Under the pieces are notes generated by a model. It was given only the letters and a program-made list of their open reading frames with translations. It was not told the DNA's origin and made no database searches. Below, piece by piece: positions 374 through 36,578 of a DNA stretch of 54,675 nucleotides. The position numbers were made by a program, and so were the translations under genes. The first letter of the stretch is position 1. Every line of letters begins with the position of its first letter. This stretch comes from Candidatus Kaiserbacteria bacterium (lineage in GTDB: Bacteria > Patescibacteriota > Minisyncoccia > Phycocordibacterales > UBA2100): the NCBI GenBank assembly GCA_023267655.1, contig JAHFMV010000005.1, positions 13,200 to 67,874 of the forward strand. The letters are read 5' to 3'.

Positions 374-1402
374 ATGGGCGGCCCCGATACAATCGGCAAA
401 CATTCGCACAACGCGATTCCGAACATGCCCACGTTGGGCGTCAACGAACGCGCCCTCGCGTTCGCGATGCTCCACGATCGCAACAACAGCATTGTCCAAT
501 ACTCTGTGGATACCGCCGACGGACAGCGCATCGTGCCTTCCCTATCAGACAACGAATGGCCTGCGTTGGTGAATAAATTTAAGTCAAATCCTAAAGAAGC
601 GATTGCGACTGCGCGTTTGAATGTCTTTAGCATCCAACAGGACACCCGCCTATCAGAAGCTGACCGGACCGCCAGAATCGAGAGGTACGTACGAGCATTC
701 CTCGACCTCCAGGTGAAATTGGACATTGCTGCATTTCCGAATATCGATAAGCCCCAAAGCGGAGTCCCCGAATACATACCGCACGGCCTGATTGATATGG
801 GGTCGGATCTTACACAAGACCCGGCGCGGCGCTCTCGCGAGATGCTGCATGTCGATAAGCGGAGGATGTTTGCGCAAACAGCAAAGAATATTCTTAAATA
901 TTTCCAAACGCCAAATACTGATTCCTCGAGCGACGCAGCAAAGCTTTCTGTCGTCAAGAATGTTGCAGCCCTCGTATATACGGCGATGCCGTACGACAAA
1001 GCGGAAGCCGCAACATACCACACCTCGAAAAGGGTCGTCGGAGTACACGAGGCGTTCAACGAACGCCTCGCGCAGTGTCGGCATCACGCACTCTATACCC
1101 AGGTCATGCTGCAAGCTCTTGGCATCACGAGTCGGCTTTTTAAATGTGACGTTGACTTTGGAAGGGGGAGGTTCGAATCGCATGGCGCCAACCTCGTCCG
1201 CATCAATAACAAATGGTACATCTTGGACGCGACGAACCCGGACGTCAAAGACGGCATCGGCGAGATTTTTATGATTCCGATGAATGAATCAGATGTTGAT
1301 CCTACTTCATTGAAAGGAAAAGAGTGGGTTGCAAAGAAAAAAGATGGCAGCACCGTGAAATATCGCTCTCGAAACGATATGTACTACACGATCCGGCACT
1401 AA
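374..1402 (+). CDS. Transglutaminase-like (papain-fold) cysteine enzyme, function unknown
   Basis: 342 residues without a signal peptide or membrane segment. The C-terminal half has the ordered triad of the transglutaminase-like superfamily: Cys235 in AQCRHHALY, His270 in ESHGANLV and Asp285 in YILDATNPD. The N-terminal 200 residues match nothing I recognise. Such domains act as proteases, amidases or cross-linkers, and the substrate cannot be told from sequence. The ATG at 374 lies 6 nt after TATACT (362-367), which favours it over the later Met at 425. It converges on ddl with a 5-nt gap. Family assignment is moderately sure; activity is inference. Confidence 0.7.
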
Positions 1403-12800: not shown

Positions 12801-12880
12801 TTAGCCACTAGCGACTAGCCATTAGGGGTTGGGTTGTAATTGGATTTTGCATGTTCTAGTGGCTATTGGCTAATGGCTAT
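12801..12880. repeat. TAGTGGCTA-word repeats between secE and nusG
   Basis: Two clusters (12801-12828 and 12855-12880) of degenerate copies of TAGCCACTAG or its complement fill the secE-nusG gap. The same word occurs at five other intergenic sites in the window. Confidence 0.65.
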
Positions 12881-13144
12881 TTACTTTGTGGTGCTGGTGC
12901 TGATGATGAGATTTGGCGCTGGTGTCGTGGTGACTGGCTGAGCCTGCTGTGCGGTGTGCGGAAGGCTCTGCACGACTTGGCCGAGGCCGTGCGTGAAAGC
13001 GAAATCAAAAAAGCCGAGGTAGAGCGAGACGATGATAGAAATGGCAATCACAAGGATTGTGTAGACAACCGTCTGCACGCGCGTCGGCCATGCGACGTGG
13101 CGTAATTCTCCGCGAGTGTCTTTGAGGTACTGGATGAAAGCCAT
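12881..13144 (-). CDS. secE: Preprotein translocase subunit SecE
   Basis: 87 residues: amphipathic FIQYLKDTRGELRHVAWPTRVQTVVYT, then one transmembrane helix (about 27-47, TILVIAISIIVSLYLGFFDFAF). This is the minimal SecE that clamps SecY. The C-terminus carries a ~30-residue Thr/Gln/Pro-rich tail not typical of SecE. It lies upstream of nusG as in the conserved secE-nusG pair. Confidence 0.92.
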   Translation of the reverse strand: MAFIQYLKDTRGELRHVAWPTRVQTVVYTILVIAISIIVSLYLGFFDFAFTHGLGQVVQSLPHTAQQAQPVTTTPAPNLIISTSTTK

Positions 13145-13187
13145 GTTAGATTTTGTTAGCGAGTTTACGAGCTTAGAAAATCTTAGA

Positions 13188-13238
13188 CCCTGTTAAATTC
13201 GGCTTTTGCCGACCCGCCTCCGACGGGATTTAACAGGG
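13188..13238. other. Perfect three-armed palindromic structure upstream of secE
   Basis: An 11-bp closing stem (CCCTGTTAAAT with ATTTAACAGGG) holds two hairpins, TCGG-CTTTTG-CCGA and CCCG-CCTCCGA-CGGG, with no unpaired bases between them. The shape suggests a structured RNA or a repeat element. It lies between the secE start and the next gene's terminator. Confidence 0.6.
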
Positions 13239-13281
13239 TTAAGAAAATATAGTCGTAAACTCCTTATTTTCTAAATTAAAA

Positions 13282-13294
13282 CCCCCTGCGGGGG
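13282..13294. terminator. Short GC hairpin
   Basis: CCCCC-TGC-GGGGG preceded by an A-rich run (TAAATTAAAA), so the U-tract would be on the minus strand; it suits termination of minus-strand transcription, that of the gene at 13337-13960. Confidence 0.5.
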
Positions 13295-13336
13295 CTGTAA
13301 CTAACGCTGGAATAATAGGGTTTATTCGGAGAAAAG

Positions 13337-13960
13337 TCAACCCCCGGTGGAATACGTATCGCACTGGAATGCATCCTGAGCTTTTTCAAAGTTTTTCATT
13401 GTCGGGCTGTCCGGCAGCTTACACACGGTGTCGCGTAATGGGGCAAATCGCCCATAATACAAATCTCTGAATGGCTTAAAGTTGGTAGAGTCGTAAATGG
13501 TAAAAAACGGCTTGTTCAACTCTCGTTTCTCAGGAGCAATCTGACCATTCAACCTCAAGAGCGCAGTGACGTTTTGTGCCATCTGAGAAAGTGCCCTCTC
13601 CGTTTGCTGAGTGATCCAGCGCGCCGCATCGGCATCTGTGACCATAAACTCCCCTTTAGATATACGGTCCGGAGTAAACTTTACAGAAGCTGTCAGAGAA
13701 TTGAATGTCTTTGCAAGCTCGGGAACTTTTTTAAATTCTTCTGATTCAAACACTGCCAATAACGCATGTACATTTTCCACTGAAAGCGGGTCGCGTAACG
13801 AGCGTATATGCTTTTCATTCAAACCGAAAACTGCAAGTTGTTGCGGACTGAACTCAAACCCTTTATGAGTAAAAGGCGCGTGTTGCGCTTCGCCCGTTTT
13901 TGGAAGAATCATTTCAGCCGCACCCGCCGCCATGCCCGCTAGAAATTTTCTTCGCTCCAT
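13337..13960 (-). CDS. Secreted protein of unknown function with Tat-like signal
   Basis: 207 residues. The N-terminus MERRKFLAGMAAGAAEMILPKTGEA has an RRKFL twin-arginine-like motif and a weakly hydrophobic stretch, suggesting Tat export. The rest is soluble and mixed alpha/beta, with two Cys (CKLPD and FQCDTYS) near the C-terminus that could form a disulfide. No family recognised. TATACT at 13967-13972 stands 6 nt before the ATG at 13960, which selects this start over one 14 codons upstream. No tat genes lie in the window. Confidence 0.65.
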   Translation of the reverse strand: MERRKFLAGMAAGAAEMILPKTGEAQHAPFTHKGFEFSPQQLAVFGLNEKHIRSLRDPLSVENVHALLAVFESEEFKKVPELAKTFNSLTASVKFTPDRISKGEFMVTDADAARWITQQTERALSQMAQNVTALLRLNGQIAPEKRELNKPFFTIYDSTNFKPFRDLYYGRFAPLRDTVCKLPDSPTMKNFEKAQDAFQCDTYSTGG

Positions 13961-13993
13961 TGTGAAAGTATAGCTCACGTTTTCATTGCCGCA

Positions 13994-14027
13994 ATGCCCC
14001 ACCTCGACAGCACACGAGGCGGGGCAT
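13994..14027. terminator. GC-rich hairpin
   Basis: ATGCCCCACCTCG pairs with CGAGGCGGGGCAT around an 8-nt loop, one mismatch. It lies between the 14071-14895 gene and the 13337-13960 gene and may end transcription of the former; the T-tract is poor. Confidence 0.5.
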
Positions 14028-14037
14028 GTTGCGCTTA

Positions 14038-14068
14038 CCCTAGTGGCTAAACCCTAGCCGCTAGTGGC
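14038..14068. repeat. TAGTGGCTA-word repeats
   Basis: CCTAGTGGCTAAACCCTAGCCG-like words, three degenerate copies, just after the stop of the SIMPL gene. Confidence 0.55.
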
Positions 14069-14070
14069 TA

Positions 14071-14895
14071 TTACCTGATTTCGTACGTCACGCTCACATT
14101 CGACGTAATCTTATTCTGCCCAACTGGAAGCTCCGGCACAGGCGCTGCCGAATCCATGGCGCCCATTCCGGCGGACATTGTTTTTGCGTAGTAGATCGGA
14201 CGGCCGCCGCCATCTTCACTAAATCCGACGATGCGCACGATCTTGACACCGAGTTCTTTTGCGAGTTCATCCGCCTTTGTCTTCGCGTCTGCAATCGCCT
14301 TTGAACGCGCTTCTGCTTGCAAAGCATCCGGATCATCTGTTGTAAAAGAAAGTCCGCTCACTTGCGATGCGCCCTTCCCGCCGACGCCCGAGAGAAGATC
14401 GCCCGCTTTCTTTGTGTCGCGCACTTTTACCTCGAGTGTTTGCGTCACTTGGTAGCCGCGCAAGGTCTGCGTGCCGGGACGACATACGCCGCCCGGCTGG
14501 CATGCGCCGCTTGTGTAGTCATATTGCGGATTCACGCTGTAATCGATCGTTTTGATGTCTTTTTCGTCGACGTTCTGCGCTTTGAGGTACGCGATGATGT
14601 CGTTTGATTTCTTTGTTGCCGCTCCTTGCGCGGTCGCGACGTCTTTTGCCTCTTCTTGTACCGTCACGCTGAAAGTTGCACGATCCGGTACGGCGAATAC
14701 TTCTCCCATACCGGAAACGGAGATCGTATTCGTCGCTGTCACGCCCGAGCCGATGTAGTGGAATTCTTTAAAGGTTTTGATTGATTGCGCCGCAAGAAAG
14801 AGCGCAAGCATGATAAGAACGACGGAGCCGAACTGCACGATCCTCTCCGGCGGCATGATGTGCAATCGTTTCTCTCCATTAAATTGTTCGTCCAT
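14071..14895 (-). CDS. SIMPL-domain (DUF541) membrane-anchored periplasmic-type protein
   Basis: 274 residues. One transmembrane helix near 20-38 (VVLIMLALFLAAQSI), then a SIMPL domain: ISVSGMGEVFAVPDRATFSVTVQEEAKDVATAQGAATKKSNDIIAYLKAQNVDEKDIKT, ending SNVSVTYEIR. An insert around 130-145 has two Cys (GACQPGGVCRPG), probably a disulfide outside the membrane. SIMPL proteins form ring oligomers and are tied to envelope stress; the role here is unknown. Family assignment is firm. Confidence 0.85.
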   Translation of the reverse strand: MDEQFNGEKRLHIMPPERIVQFGSVVLIMLALFLAAQSIKTFKEFHYIGSGVTATNTISVSGMGEVFAVPDRATFSVTVQEEAKDVATAQGAATKKSNDIIAYLKAQNVDEKDIKTIDYSVNPQYDYTSGACQPGGVCRPGTQTLRGYQVTQTLEVKVRDTKKAGDLLSGVGGKGASQVSGLSFTTDDPDALQAEARSKAIADAKTKADELAKELGVKIVRIVGFSEDGGGRPIYYAKTMSAGMGAMDSAAPVPELPVGQNKITSNVSVTYEIR

Positions 14896-22362: not shown

Positions 22363-22544
22363 TGCCCTCGGGAGGAATCCTCTCGACTCGAGTTTTACCG
22401 TCATAAAATTCGGTCTCGAGCCGGCCCTCGCGGTTGCACATTGCTATGTACAACATCGCTCCGGGCTTCAATTCCTCCGCGCACGACGCGAAGGCGTCGT
22501 GCTCTCGTGCAAAAATGATTACATTTTTGCCCTCGGGAGGAATC
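22363..22544 (-). repeat. tRNA-Arg(UCU)-linked structured element with duplicated tRNA 3' end
   Basis: Downstream of tRNA-Arg(UCU), the last 17 nt of the tRNA (22528-22544) recur exactly at 22363-22379 in direct orientation, 165 bp apart. Between them lie a perfect GCACGACGC-CTTC-GCGTCGTGC hairpin (22481-22502) and a second hairpin (22433-22454) bounded by GGAGCGATGTT and AACCGCGAGG. A homologous element follows tRNA-Arg(GCG) at 32867-33047. The layout resembles an att-type duplication around a very small insert, or a structured RNA. Confidence 0.7.
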
Positions 22545-22599
22545 GAACCTCCATCAACGGCTTAGAAGTCCGCTGTTTTATCCATTAAACTACAAGGGC
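22528..22599 (-). tRNA. tRNA-Arg (TCT)
   Basis: 72 nt, GCCCTTG/CGAGGGC acceptor with A73, anticodon loop CTTCTAA (TCT), T-loop TTCGATT. A31-G39 is mismatched next to the loop. The CCA end is absent. Its last 17 nt are duplicated 165 bp further downstream. Confidence 0.9.
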
Positions 22600-29065: not shown

Positions 29066-29536
29066 ATGCCTGATGAAGGAACGGGAACTCTGCGATGGAT
29101 GGCGTACGAGCACGAACATATCGAGCGCGGGTCTGATTGGTTTTGGGCACTTGGTGTTATCGCTGTTTCCGCTGCACTCACTTCAATCCTTTTTGGCAAT
29201 GTCCTCTTCGCGCTCCTTATTCTCGTCGCCGCGGTCACGATCGGCCTCATCGCGAAAAAGCCGCCAGAAATGCACGAATTTGAAATTTCAGAAAAAGGCA
29301 TTCGCACGGGGAAAAATTTCCATCCGTACGATTCGGTCATTTCGTTTTGGGTTGATGAGGAATTAGAAAAGCCACTCCTCCTCGTCGACACGGTCACGTT
29401 CATGACGCCGAACCTGATCATTCCTATCGGCGACATGCATCCTGACGATTTACGCGCCGCACTACGTCCGCACGCGGAAGAAGTCCCCATGAAAGAGCCC
29501 TTCGCGCACAAAATTCTCGAATTCTTCGGATTCTAA
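29066..29536 (+). CDS. Membrane protein with two helices and a PH-like cytoplasmic tail
   Basis: 156 residues. Two transmembrane helices (WFWALGVIAVSAALTSILF, NVLFALLILVAAVTIGLIA) followed by FEISEKGIRTGKNFHPYDSVISFWVDEELEKPLLLVDTVTFMTPNLIIPIGDMHPDDLRAALRPH, a bacterial PH-like domain pattern (DUF-type). Proteins like this are common next to pili genes in Parcubacteria, role unknown. The ATG at 29066 has TACAAT (29053-29058) 7 nt before it. Confidence 0.72.
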   Translation: MPDEGTGTLRWMAYEHEHIERGSDWFWALGVIAVSAALTSILFGNVLFALLILVAAVTIGLIAKKPPEMHEFEISEKGIRTGKNFHPYDSVISFWVDEELEKPLLLVDTVTFMTPNLIIPIGDMHPDDLRAALRPHAEEVPMKEPFAHKILEFFGF

Positions 29537-29539
29537 TAT

Positions 29540-29572
29540 AGCCACTGGCCACTAGGGTTTAGCCACTAGGGA
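29540..29572. repeat. TAGCCACTAG-word repeats
   Basis: AGCCACTGGCCACTAGGG-like degenerate words between two convergent genes. Confidence 0.55.
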
Positions 29573-29911
29573 AGAAATTAGCTTGTTTAGCATGCGCATT
29601 GTTTCCTCTAAAAATTGCTTTACGTTCGCAGTTTCCGTACTTGATGCAAGCTCAAGCTCTTCGGTGAGAACAACAAAGGTCTCTAGTTCTGCACCGGAGC
29701 CAAAAGCGATTCTTACAAACTGGACGTACTCTCCTCGATGCTTTCGGGCGAACCCTTCTGCAAGATTCGCAGGAATCGATACTGCGGCTCGTCGCATTTG
29801 ACTCGTCAGTCCGAACATTTCCGCTCTTGGGAACTTTTCTGTTAGTTTGTATACAGCTTTTACTAACTGAATGCCTCTCTGCCACACGATCAAATCGCGG
29901 TATGTTTGCAT
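29552..29911 (-). CDS. Four-helix bundle protein (S23 ribosomal-type)
   Basis: 119 residues: YRDLIVWQRGIQLVKAVYKLTEKFPRAEMFGLTSQMRRAAVSIPANLAEGFARKHRGEYVQFVRIAFGSGAELETFVVLTEEL is the diagnostic sequence of the small four-helix family originally found as an insertion in 23S rRNA genes. The function is unknown. It is bracketed on both sides by TAGTGGCTA word repeats (29540-29572 and 29915-29940), which suggests a mobile cassette. Confidence 0.88.
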   Translation of the reverse strand: MQTYRDLIVWQRGIQLVKAVYKLTEKFPRAEMFGLTSQMRRAAVSIPANLAEGFARKHRGEYVQFVRIAFGSGAELETFVVLTEELELASSTETANVKQFLEETMRMLNKLISSLVAKP

Positions 29912-29914
29912 TTT

Positions 29915-29940
29915 CCTAGTGGCTATTGGCTAGTGGCTAA
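29915..29940. repeat. TAGTGGCTA-word repeats
   Basis: CCTAGTGGCTATTGGCTAGTGG-like copies directly upstream of the four-helix bundle gene. Confidence 0.6.
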
Positions 29941-32274
29941 TCACTGTATTTCCACCGTCGTCTCTGCCGTCTTAGTACCCCCTGCTTTTGTCGTGCAGTT
30001 CAGGACGAATTTTGTACTCTGGGTCAGCGCGGGAGATTTCACCGCACCCGATGTTTGCGGGTTCCCACTTGCATCAAGCGCACCTCCAGGCTTCCAATCG
30101 CTACCGAGTGTTGGGCTTGAAATCACGCAGCTCTCCATCGCCCCCGTTACCCAGCCGATATTTGAGACGGCGCCTGATTTTACATTCTTCGGATTACCCA
30201 CGAGCACGATCGACGGCTTATTCACATTGACTGTGCACTGCGCACTATCAGTCTGGCCGTCTTTGGAACATGTAAGGCCGTACGTGATATTGGTCGAACC
30301 TGCCGTCGGTGATGTCACGTCCGCGGTCGCCGAACCCGACTGTTGGTTATCAGTCGAGAAATTGTCGCCCTTGCTGGTCGATGCATTCTGGCACGCGTAT
30401 GAAATGGAAACGGTCATGCCAACATCGGCGATTTTCGGCTGGCACGAAATCTGGGCTTTCGGTTTGTCAGAGCTTGTTCCCGTGTCAGTCCCGGATGTCG
30501 GAGTTTGTGCGCCGACCGTTACCTGCGTCGTGCACTGTCCCTGCTGCGGCGTGCCGCCTGCTTGCGGTTGTATCTGACCCGGATTGACCGGCGGTGCTAC
30601 GCCGTAGCCTGAAGTTGCTCGATAATTGAGACATCCAGGAACGGCAGGGTATGGCTGCCAAACTACGGGAAAGGTGCTGGTAACGCAGTATTGATCTTGC
30701 TGCTGTTGGCCATACGGATTATATTGCTGCTGTTGTTGCTGCTGCGCGGTCTGTGGCGGATAGCCGACGACCTGCAGTGTGTACGTCGTCGTTTGTTGCG
30801 GATTCACGGTGATGGAACCCGTCGGCCCGACTTGGCCGGAGGCAGAGAGATACGCCGACTGTGCGTTTTGCGATGTCCACGACAGCGTGACTGGTGCGCC
30901 CGGCTGCGTGATGTTTTTCGGCGATGCGGTCACGGTGCACGATGGCGTCGGCTGCAGCGCGTTATTCAAAAGTTGTCCGAGGAGCGGCATAAGTGGCGCA
31001 AGGCCTTTTAGAAAGTCGCCGATGTTGCCCGAGCCGCCGGTTGAGTTGGTTTTTGTATCCCCTCCGCCACCACCACAATTTCCTCCTGTACAACCTCCCG
31101 GAGGGGGTTTTTGGAACGTGCTGCAATCCGGCTTACCTTGATTTACAGCCTGAGAACAATCAGTCCCACCCACGAGCTTCCCATCCTTCCATTCACCCCC
31201 CTTGCAGTCGGGACCGCCGGGACAATTGTAAACTTTACTCGCATCAGGATTTGTTCCTGCCGTAAGAACTTTTTTTACATCCCCGAGCGGTTCAGCGTTT
31301 TTTGCCAATTGTTCCAATCTTTGCTTCTGGTCGTCAAGCTTTTGTTTTGCATCCGCTTCTGTCTTTGCCTGATCGTCACACGCTCCTGGCACAGCCATTG
31401 CCAAACATGAAATGAGGTTATCCTTGGCTTGAGCATACTCTTTTTGCAGATCCACCAATTTTTGTTGCTGCTGATCAGTATCAAACGCATTCAGAAGCGA
31501 GGCCTGAACATTTTTATCTAGCGATTGTACATACGGCGCCATTGCCTTCACATCATCCTTGGTGAGACTGGGATCCAGTAATTTTTTATCAATAGCATCT
31601 TTCAGCGCCGTGGTTCTGCCGGAAGAAAGATCAGCGGCCTCGCCCGGTTTTCCCGCACTCCCCATTAATACACACTCGGCATCACTCGGTTTGCCTTGTG
31701 CATTTTTCACTCGGAGACTATCAATCTTGCAGTAGAAATACCGACACTTCCAACCATCTTTTGTGCAATATCGAGTTTTTCCTTCTGGGTCTTTGTATGG
31801 TGTTTTTGAATCAATTTTTGGGCACTGTGTAGCCCCCCTGGGCTTCACCGTGGGCTGACCCTTCTGCTCTTCACGAACTTCGTAATCAAACCCGATGTCA
31901 CATTTTCCTTTTACTTCGCCATCGGATGATTTGTCGGCTGTTCCACTCGTACCAGGTGCTGTCACTGCTTGAGCAAGCTGGGCTTGTGAACTTTGTGCGA
32001 TCGAATACACTCGCGCCGAATCAAGTGCAACCGCCGCCGCACCGATGCCAACAACAAGGAGGAGTGCGGCAATAGCAACATTCCCGCGCGCGCCTAAACG
32101 ATTCACATGCGAATCGTCGGCTAAAACCTTTGGTTCGCCCGACTCGGAGTCTAGGGCCGAACAATCGGCGTTGGTCGCCGATTGTTTTAGGCGATGAGGC
32201 GTTTCCATTCCGTAATGATGCGGCCTAAGTGGCAACGACGCAATGCGCATGTGTGGAAAGTCTCGGTCTTCCAT
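29941..32274 (-). CDS. Large secreted protein with TadG-like N-terminus and Ig-like domains
   Basis: 777 residues; the exact start is unsure. A ~50-residue cytoplasmic part precedes RGNVAIAALLLVVGIGAAAVALDSARVYSIAQSSQAQLAQAV, like the anchor of TadG-type pilus proteins. Then follow a Cys-rich domain (CDIGFDY, TQCPKI, RYCTKDGWKCRYFYC), a coiled-coil (about 220-320), a Gly/Cys-rich linker (CTGGNCGGGGG), an Ig-like domain (VTASPKNITQPGAPVTLSWTSQNAQSAYLSASG), a Gln-rich insert and two further Ig-like parts. It overlaps the ParE gene stop by 1 nt. Likely a surface adhesin; inferred. Confidence 0.7.
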   Translation of the reverse strand: MEDRDFPHMRIASLPLRPHHYGMETPHRLKQSATNADCSALDSESGEPKVLADDSHVNRLGARGNVAIAALLLVVGIGAAAVALDSARVYSIAQSSQAQLAQAVTAPGTSGTADKSSDGEVKGKCDIGFDYEVREEQKGQPTVKPRGATQCPKIDSKTPYKDPEGKTRYCTKDGWKCRYFYCKIDSLRVKNAQGKPSDAECVLMGSAGKPGEAADLSSGRTTALKDAIDKKLLDPSLTKDDVKAMAPYVQSLDKNVQASLLNAFDTDQQQQKLVDLQKEYAQAKDNLISCLAMAVPGACDDQAKTEADAKQKLDDQKQRLEQLAKNAEPLGDVKKVLTAGTNPDASKVYNCPGGPDCKGGEWKDGKLVGGTDCSQAVNQGKPDCSTFQKPPPGGCTGGNCGGGGGDTKTNSTGGSGNIGDFLKGLAPLMPLLGQLLNNALQPTPSCTVTASPKNITQPGAPVTLSWTSQNAQSAYLSASGQVGPTGSITVNPQQTTTYTLQVVGYPPQTAQQQQQQQYNPYGQQQQDQYCVTSTFPVVWQPYPAVPGCLNYRATSGYGVAPPVNPGQIQPQAGGTPQQGQCTTQVTVGAQTPTSGTDTGTSSDKPKAQISCQPKIADVGMTVSISYACQNASTSKGDNFSTDNQQSGSATADVTSPTAGSTNITYGLTCSKDGQTDSAQCTVNVNKPSIVLVGNPKNVKSGAVSNIGWVTGAMESCVISSPTLGSDWKPGGALDASGNPQTSGAVKSPALTQSTKFVLNCTTKAGGTKTAETTVEIQ

Positions 32275-32812: not shown

Positions 32813-32884
32813 GCTCTCGTCGTTCAACGGATAGGACACTTCCCTGCGAAGGAAGAAATGCAGGTTCGATTCCTGCCGAGGGCA
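32813..32884 (+). tRNA. tRNA-Arg (GCG)
   Basis: 72 nt: GCTCTCG/CGAGGGC with A73, D-arm CGTTCAACGGATAGGACA, anticodon arm CTTCC-CTGCGAA-GGAAG (GCG), T-loop TTCGATT. No CCA is encoded. Its 3' end is repeated with one or two changes 163 bp downstream. Confidence 0.93.
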
Positions 32885-33047
32885 AAAACGAAGTTTTTGA
32901 CCGAGAGCGCAACGCCTTCGCGTTGCGTGTGCAGGAATCGAAAGACGGAGGCGTGTTTCGTCAGTAGACGAAACGGCCGAGTCGGGGTCGACGAAAAATA
33001 CCCGCGACGGCGGGGATTTTATCGGTGACCGATTCCCGCCGAGGGCA
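32867..33047 (+). repeat. tRNA-Arg(GCG)-linked structured element with duplicated tRNA 3' end
   Basis: The tRNA 3' segment 32867-32884 recurs at 33030-33047 (CGATTCCCGCCGAGGGCA against CGATTCCTGCCGAGGGCA), 163 bp apart. Between them are CGCAACGC-CTTC-GCGTTGCG (32908-32927) and GTTTCGTC-AGTA-GACGAAAC (32955-32974). Each hairpin has the same place and loop as in the element at 22363-22544 but with compensated stem changes, so the pairing is conserved. Confidence 0.7.
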
Positions 33048-33054
33048 TAGAGAC

Positions 33055-33082
33055 GAAAAACCTGCCCTGCGGCAGGTTTTTT
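33055..33082 (+). terminator. Terminator hairpin after the tRNA-Arg element
   Basis: AAAAACCTGCC-CTGC-GGCAGGTTTTTT: stem of 11 bp with a T-tract, probably ending tRNA-Arg transcription. Confidence 0.7.
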
Positions 33083-33187
33083 CGCGATATGCCGGCCGGA
33101 GCGATGTTCCGCCAGCTGGCGGAACCGCGAGGCGAGGTCGCGAAATTTTTGAGCGTCGGCGAAAAAATATTCGTGACCAAATACGAA
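33083..33187 (+). repeat. Third, partial copy of the tRNA-Arg-linked motif
   Basis: GGAGCGATGTT, then CCGCCAGC-TGGCGG (33106-33125 as a full stem GTTCCGCCA/TGGCGGAAC), then AACCGCGAGG, GGTCGCGAAATTTT. The conserved flanks match the element at 22363-22544 exactly while the hairpin arms are different. No tRNA 3' end closes this copy. Confidence 0.55.
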
Positions 33188-33219
33188 GCAAAAAGTCTCC
33201 TTGCGGAGACTTTTTTGCT
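33188..33219. terminator. Bidirectional terminator upstream-facing rpsT
   Basis: AGCAAAAAGTCTCC-TTGC-GGAGACTTTTTTGCT, 14-bp stem with A/T tracts on both sides, 20 nt after the rpsT stop. Confidence 0.8.
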
Positions 33220-35504: not shown

Positions 35505-36494
35505 ATGGTTCGCTATATCATCGGATGCCTCGTCGCGTTCATACTGATCGCTCTTCTCGTGATCTGGATTTTAAGCGGTGGACCGCGTCGCGCATTTACG
35601 GGCGCAAAAACAAGCATCGACAGTGCACTTCCTTCGAGCGCCATCGGATTCAAGCTCCCGTGGCAGCCGGCCGAAATCTTCCCCACGCTCGACATCACAA
35701 GCGCGCTTGATTTTCCCGGCACTGCGGATGAACTTTCGCCCGAAGAAAAACTCGCGCAACTGCAAGATGAGTACGATCGCTTGAGTTCAGAGGCGTCGCA
35801 GACGCGCGCGTACGGCGCGCCGTCACCGTACATGGGCAAAATTGCCATCGTGCAAGATGCATCAAGTCTGCGTGCAGATTCCGCGCGCGACGAATACCTG
35901 CAAATAGCCGCAAACTATTCAAATACCGAATCAGTCGACATCGCCGGCTGGACGCTCGAGAGCGCACTCACGGGAACGCATGTTGTCATTCCGCCCGGCG
36001 CATCCCCCTTTATCGCAAATTCCGCAAACGTGCTCGGCCCCGTCACGCTCGACCCGGGCGCACTCGCACTTGTCTCGTCAGCACCATCCCCCGTCGGCGT
36101 TTCCTTCAGGGAAAACACCTGCACCGGATACCTCGGACAATTCCAGACATTTTCCCCACCTCTCTCCGAAGCATGCCCTGCGCCGTCGGATGTGTTGCCA
36201 CTCACAGAAACGAATTTGCAACAATACGGCGACGCGTGTTTCGACGCGATCACGAACATTTCGTCGTGCCGCTTCCCGCAAAATCTTTCAACAGTCTCTG
36301 CCGCGTGCCGCTCCTATCTCACTACGTCGCTCTCGTATAACGGCTGCGTGCAGCACAACCAATTCAGGAGCGGCTTTGAGGAAAACATGTGGCGCGTGTA
36401 TTTGGGCACGTCGGGCGACCTCTGGCGCAATTCACACGACGCAATCCGGCTTTTAGATGCGAGTGGAAAAACCGTGAGTGTATTCGTGTACTAA
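35505..36494 (+). CDS. Membrane-anchored lamin-tail-domain protein
   Basis: 329 residues. N-terminal helix MVRYIIGCLVAFILIALLVIWIL anchors it. Residues ~125-175 (DEYLQIAANYSNTESVDIAGWTLESALTGTHVVIPPGASPF) are a lamin-tail (LTD) domain of the Ig-like kind; a second domain with paired Cys (ENTCTGYLGQF...SEACPAPSD, SSCRFP, AACRSYL, NGCVQHNQF) follows, ending WRVYLGTSGDLWRNSHDAIRLLDASGKTV. The frame starts upstream with TTG, but ATG at 35505 is preferred. LTD proteins on bacterial surfaces are common in Patescibacteria. Confidence 0.75.
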   Translation: MVRYIIGCLVAFILIALLVIWILSGGPRRAFTGAKTSIDSALPSSAIGFKLPWQPAEIFPTLDITSALDFPGTADELSPEEKLAQLQDEYDRLSSEASQTRAYGAPSPYMGKIAIVQDASSLRADSARDEYLQIAANYSNTESVDIAGWTLESALTGTHVVIPPGASPFIANSANVLGPVTLDPGALALVSSAPSPVGVSFRENTCTGYLGQFQTFSPPLSEACPAPSDVLPLTETNLQQYGDACFDAITNISSCRFPQNLSTVSAACRSYLTTSLSYNGCVQHNQFRSGFEENMWRVYLGTSGDLWRNSHDAIRLLDASGKTVSVFVY

Positions 36495-36499
36495 ACGAG

Positions 36500-36578
36500 C
36501 CCCTAGCCACTGGGGTTTAGCCACTAGGAAATGCAAATGCGTCCCGAACTTCCCTAGCCGTTGGCTAGTGGCTAATGG
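36500..36578. repeat. TAGCCACTAG-word repeats
   Basis: Two clusters (36500-36530 and 36552-36578) of degenerate TAGCCACT/TAGTGGCTA words between convergent genes, reaching into the 3' end of the methyltransferase gene. Confidence 0.6.

Follow-up and report, generated by a model that had tools for sequence, protein, structure and literature searches.

Why does the 3′ end of a complete tRNA gene occur a second time a short distance downstream, and what is the structured sequence that lies between the two copies? This question is raised by tRNA-Arg(GCG) (32813–32884, plus strand; detected by ARAGORN and Rfam RF00005) in a 54,675-nt stretch of a Candidatus Kaiserbacteria bacterium genome (contig JAHFMV010000005.1, positions 13,200 to 67,874), which is referred to as the window in the following. 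A preliminary description of this DNA had reported the repeat, and indeed the tRNA end GATTCCTGCCGAGGGCA (32868–32884) is found again as GATTCCCGCCGAGGGCA (33031–33047), 163 bp apart and with 16 of 17 positions being identical. The duplicated tail starts inside the T-loop (TTC|GATTCC).

Architecture of the units in the window

The class A insertion at tRNA-Arg(GCG) comprises 163 bp (32868–33030, plus strand), with its T-loop borders (32867|32868 to 33030|33031) being set by an alignment of the locus, after removal of the insert, against locus L051 of genome G043 (genomes and loci are denoted by G and L numbers). In such units the tRNA with its tail #1 is followed by a hairpin (HP0), a segment antisense to the acceptor and trailer, a second hairpin (HP1), another antisense segment directed against the T-arm, the core helices P2 and P3 and finally tail #2; both antisense segments together are termed X′. 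At tRNA-Arg(GCG), where all parts lie on the plus strand, tail #1 represents the last 17 nt of the gene (32868–32884) and is read as supplied by the element, based on the same alignment. HP0 (AAAACGAAGTTTTT, 32885–32898), evident from sequence and predicted folds, exhibits a cGNAg triloop, which is frequent at this place across the family, with a terminator being the other form. The acceptor part of X′ (32894–32902) overlaps the 3′ arm of HP0 and is complementary, except for one mismatch, to the end of the tRNA and its trailer, as judged from the sequence and from a comparison with the other family loci. Folding places HP1, the first hairpin of the preliminary description, at 32908–32927, and the T-arm part of X′ (GCAGGAATCGAA, 32931–32942) is by its sequence the antisense of the T-arm on both sides of the insertion point, so that X′ extends across the start point of #2 (TTC|GATTCC). 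The core consists of P2 (32944–32983; the former second hairpin, with a GGA/GA internal loop and an AGNN apical loop) and P3 (32984–33030; GNCG-type apical loop), whose end is the junction. Both helices are supported by covariation and by a covariance model match at 32933–33036 (79 bits). Tail #2 (33031–33047), the displaced original 3′ end of tRNA-Arg(GCG), leads into a class B unit, as is also the case for the uninterrupted tRNA of G043.

The other class A copy of the window lies on the minus strand at tRNA-Arg(TCT) (22528–22599). Its insertion of 165 bp (22380–22544; covariance model match at 22374–22476, 68 bits) contains, next to tail #1, HP0 (22512–22527), HP1 (22481–22502), X′ (22467–22478), P2 (22424–22466) and P3 (22380–22423), and is followed by the displaced tRNA end #2 (22363–22379), which is identical to #1 at 17 of 17 positions. 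Without this insert tRNA-Arg(TCT) would be followed by tRNA-Val(TAC) at a short distance, as is the case in G029 and other relatives without the insert. Both hairpins and the common skeleton of the two copies were found as previously described, but not the claimed equal length, with the inserts measuring 163 and 165 bp. The whole units fold far better than shuffled sequence (z-scores of −5.1 and −6.8). Also an excised circle of 163 nt is predicted to fold (z-score of −6.4 against mononucleotide shuffles), namely as a three-way junction of P2, P3 and a helix P1, formed by X′ and #1, with the crossover being located at the branch point.

Directly behind the displaced end of tRNA-Arg(GCG) follows the class B unit (33055–33189, plus strand; covariance model match at 33084–33184, 90.9 bits), which belongs to the same core family and lacks the T-arm antisense. 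It comprises a terminator-like hairpin (33055–33083), X′ (33084–33093), P2 (33094–33133), P3 (33136–33178) and a short #2 from 33179 onwards; a location of X′ behind terminator-like hairpins is general for class B. The same class B unit is also present at tRNA-Arg(GCG) of G043. The order of these sequences in the window is nested, with the class B core having arrived first and the class A unit later in the same tRNA. The insertion within the tRNA gene, the antisense segment before the core, the wide distribution of the family and the neighboring second core type were not visible to the reader who provided the preliminary description.

Selection on pairing

The changes in both arms of the two hairpins had been taken as evidence for selection on pairing, with a larger alignment being named as the test that could refute it. 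In an alignment of 106 homologues, fitted to the covariance model, all 28 core pairs exhibit two-sided changes and 92.1% of the cells are paired. The covariation score of these model-aligned matches is 0.674, whereas shuffling gives 0.206 and slid partners do not exceed 0.155. When 23 cores were aligned independently with MAFFT/RNAalifold, 25 of the 28 pairs still contained two-sided changes. The claim consequently stands, and pairing within the core is strongly selected for. Only 3.1% of the standard core pairs (82 of 2678) are G.U pairs, compared to 6.2% in the tRNA stems of the same loci. This may be a weak hint of folding as DNA, with neither composition nor relatedness being controlled for.

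Distribution and target genes

In related genomes BLAST searches unveiled such an arrangement downstream of tRNAs for Arg, Pro, Val, Leu, Phe, Gly, Met, Cys, Ala, Ser and Gln. The covariance model (R1) detected copies in 56 of the 68 family genomes (0–22 per genome, nine in the genome studied here) and in 21 of 192 genomes of a sample across the phylum. With up to ~20 insertions per genome of ~1 Mb, mostly behind tRNA genes, the units are a major trait of Kaiserbacteria-type Patescibacteria, which are very small bacteria, and apparently one that has not been described before. A 21-base exact pattern matched 21 GTDB contigs, whose assemblies bear the names of Patescibacteria groups, among them Kaiser-, Nomura-, Uhr-, Magasanik- and Yanofskybacteria, or are listed as unnamed bacteria. 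No match was obtained in a pattern scan of IMG/VR, in phages or in plasmids, and a virus or plasmid origin was rejected on this basis. No Rfam family covers the element outside the tRNA, and a search of the literature on tRNA introns, integrons and repeats of CPR bacteria and on Kaiserbacteria, which most subscription papers lay outside of, yielded no mention of it.

The preference for tRNA genes is pronounced. A tRNA on the same strand is located at most 260 nt upstream in 86 of the 106 core matches. Within 300 nt upstream it is found for eight of the nine cores of this genome and for at least 38 of 73 cores in a set of five genomes, where 0.7% would be expected per core (P ~1e-61). The observation in the window therefore clearly exceeds chance, with the unit being folded, 106 homologues sharing its structure and their positions being adjacent to tRNAs. 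The targets, directly upstream of the units, are mostly tRNAs of ~20 kinds, but also tmRNA and a few conserved coding genes, namely the ends of topA, rpsR, rpsI and rplL (named by their C-terminal sequences, without a profile search). Insertions recur at the C-terminus of topA (G021, G033, G038 and G046; loci L160, L286, L295 and L301), and in L160 and L286 both topA tails still encode TIPERCSNK...HNPHKL. A further coding target is a gene ending in DMMGSSQ or similar (G000, G038, G046 and G033).

According to the preliminary description each tail follows its host gene, which tails not matching the adjacent tRNA would have refuted. Inside the window this is a weak test, because both hosts are tRNA-Arg genes whose tails hardly differ. 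The homologues behind ~20 amino-acid types make it decisive: the downstream copy agrees with its upstream tRNA in ~60 class A loci, and the refuting case was thus not encountered. All data stem from metagenome-assembled genomes with one assembly per species, and outside the window the assignment of #1 and #2 rests on ARAGORN calls, which are biased to an intact #1.

Insertion with restoration of the target

In locus L051 of G043 tRNA-Arg(GCG) leads straight into the class B core and then into a terminator. The window exhibits the same order, broken by exactly 163 bp, after whose removal 204 of 279 positions align. From this empty site it follows that #2 is the original tRNA end, whereas #1 belongs to the inserted unit. 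At topA, rpsR and rplL the two tails encode the same C-terminus and differ in 27 of 57 codons, of which 23 are synonymous (5.4 expected). Differences of this kind indicate homologues which diverged as coding sequences and not a decayed local duplication, and a simple target-site duplication is thereby ruled out. Tail #2 is degenerate in many loci. In every case with a clear difference between #1 and #2 in the X′ region, it is #1 that X′ matches (13 of 13 by our own reading of the locus table). This supports that tail, X′ and core travel together. A mere terminator or attenuator would leave #2, the empty site and the tail copies conserved at the protein level unexplained.

With these data we regard an insertion with restoration of the target as very probable. 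The unit, consisting of #1, HP0, HP1, X′, P2 and P3, enters the 3′ end of its target gene at one point, which is the T-loop for class A, the 3′ terminus of the tRNA for class B and the last codons for the few coding genes. Next to the gene body #1 then completes the gene, while the old end #2 is displaced downstream; the host gene survives because the element brings a spare copy of the gene’s end.

Mobility and the search for an enzyme

The presence of the units at the same tRNA is patchy among related genomes, and tandem units occur in L012, L152 and L219. About 50 nt including a terminator and X′ are nearly identical behind tRNA-Ile in G000 (L122) and tRNA-Leu in G038 (L130). In terms of core similarity, nearest neighbors do not group by genome (3 compared to 1.9 expected) and cluster slightly by amino acid (11 compared to 5.8 expected, p = 0.04). 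The tRNA-Leu loci of G038 and G046 have a deviation of #2 in common, with the helices of both inserts being changed in a compensated way; this would fit long vertical maintenance with a function as well as mobility.

Four of many possible enzyme families were compared with copy number, namely Y1 transposases, reverse transcriptases, tyrosine recombinases and large serine recombinases, and none was related to it (Spearman |r| not above 0.17). For Y1 transposases (Spearman 0.11, p = 0.36) several element-rich genomes do not contain any Y1_Tnp, and for serine recombinases (Spearman 0.07, p = 0.55) none was found in G043, G033 and G044, which harbor 10–16 copies. Most genomes contain a single tyrosine recombinase of Xer size, and reverse transcriptase genes are absent from most element-rich genomes. 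As copy number does not relate to the tested families, the mover should be common to all genomes (Xer), external or of another kind. The mechanism of movement remains inferred, with neither an excised circle nor a very recent insertion within one species being present in the data.

Some loci are more complex. Behind tRNA-Asn, L219 (18425–19345) contains an array of two or three tandem units that resembles a cassette array, one of them with an ORF of 84 amino acids without Pfam match. In L215 (15677–19373) tRNA-Ala(TGC) and its class A core are 3.5 kb apart, with an ORF for a large serine recombinase and cargo filling the gap. This island was considered as an autonomous form of the element and rejected: it has probably split a class A insertion that was already in place, and copy number does not follow the recombinases. 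The promoter-like upstream sequence CTTTTTGRTAYAATGACCAC is common to two cores that have no tRNA next to them (L145/L215 and L056/L217), which may mark the right end of a single type of island.

Comparison with known systems

In integrons, attC cassettes carry a folded site at the cassette boundary and form tandem arrays at one anchor. The units described here differ in having a three-way junction with two hairpins instead of the single attC hairpin and a tRNA as anchor. REP/BIME repeats with their RAYT (Y1) transposases and IS200/IS605 elements are short, palindromic, structured and multicopy, with a guide segment 5′ of the hairpin. Unlike these, our units restore their target, are specific for gene ends and do not follow Y1_Tnp in copy number.

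A further likeness is to integrase-bearing genomic islands in tRNA and tmRNA genes, where the tDNA is split, restored by the element and its fragment displaced (Islander, PMC4383910). A restored target, a displaced fragment and an empty site (L051 of G043 against the window), which are among the criteria for such tDNA islands, are all given here, and both systems enter the 3′ ends of tRNA, tmRNA or conserved genes, restore them with the tail of the element, have the far end marked by the displaced fragment and insert in tandem. However, the units measure 163–165 bp and not kilobases, contain no integrase or other gene, for which 163 and 165 bp are too short, and possess a covarying core and the antisense X′. 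Target restoration, known from kilobase islands, thus also works in gene-less units of ~160 bp. Standard island finders exclude these by their length limit and integrase requirement; Islander, for example, rejects candidates below 2 kb (PMC4383910).

A possible mechanism and its alternatives

We find it rather probable that the units form a family of very small integrative elements without genes, which restore their target in the manner of tDNA islands and use a folded site for their mobility. New with respect to known islands are their size, the absence of any gene, the antisense X′ and the conservation of a three-way junction. It is inferred that the excised form would be a circle or a single strand, in which P3 abuts #1 and X′ pairs with #1. 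P1, P2 and P3 would then form a three-way junction with the crossover as branch point. As X′ extends over the crossover and is able to pair with the target TTC|GATTCC, it could serve as address and folded recombination site in one, while the moving enzyme might be a recombinase of a helper or of the housekeeping kind. That a folded single-stranded site takes part in a step of this process is proposed only tentatively. More doubtful still is the complete version, in which a protein-free element of ~160 nt uses its own folded strand as recombination site and X′ for base pairing to the target, with a helper or housekeeping recombinase acting on single-stranded DNA or RNA. Nonetheless, a covarying core with an antisense across the insertion point provides a concrete and testable case of a folded, base-pair-addressed recombination site.

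X′ could alternatively act in the transcript as part of a cis-acting RNA switch. It would pair either with the tRNA’s own tail, by which the cloverleaf is blocked, or with #2, by which the three-way junction is formed and the tRNA freed, and a factor binding the core would control tRNA maturation or termination. In silico, pairing of X′ with the tRNA yields −107.2 kcal/mol compared to −98.3 kcal/mol for the tRNA and a separately folded element. The selection on the structure, the location of class B X′ behind terminator-like hairpins and the still compensated helices at tRNA-Leu of G038 and G046 with their common #2 deviation would also be in agreement with a switch. Yet such a function is hard to reconcile with #2 being degenerate in many loci and X′ following #1 only, with copies at topA, rpsR and rplL whose tails are conserved as protein, with the patchy presence at orthologous tRNAs and with cores that are not sorted by tRNA identity. 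A switch hence appears unlikely, but possible.

It seems similarly unlikely that the units are ordinary satellites of a tyrosine or serine integrase with double-stranded att sites and with hairpins serving another purpose, for example, termination. Most genomes contain only the one Xer-sized tyrosine recombinase, serine recombinases are missing in some element-rich genomes, and with double-stranded att sites there would be no need for each copy to have covarying helices and an antisense X′. This is set against positions at the T-loop or 3′ end and target restoration, which are hallmarks of integrase islands in tDNAs (PMC4383910), and against the larger locus L215 with its large serine recombinase beside tRNA-Ala.

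A small self-splicing and reverse-splicing intron-like RNA, which leaves and re-enters other tRNAs with X′ as internal guide to both exons, is likewise possible but unlikely: although the complementarity of X′ crosses the junction, as in a group I guide, and the excised segment folds compactly, the element has no group I or II match in Rfam (gathering score or E ≤ 2), the tRNA is already complete before it, joining the 5′ flank to #2 gave no new tRNA in any locus without intact upstream tRNA, and most element-rich genomes lack reverse transcriptase genes. An intron needed for tRNA function was dismissed on the same grounds of a complete upstream tRNA and joins without a new tRNA.

Further sequence features

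Before the element in L053 (~1000–1250, minus strand) lies what looks like a tRNA with CAT anticodon and a group I intron (AUAGUCC-like end). The window itself harbors a second repeat family, composed of the words CTAGTGGCTA and TAGCCACTAG, which occur in both orientations at 12801–14083, 29535–29950 and 36483–36531.
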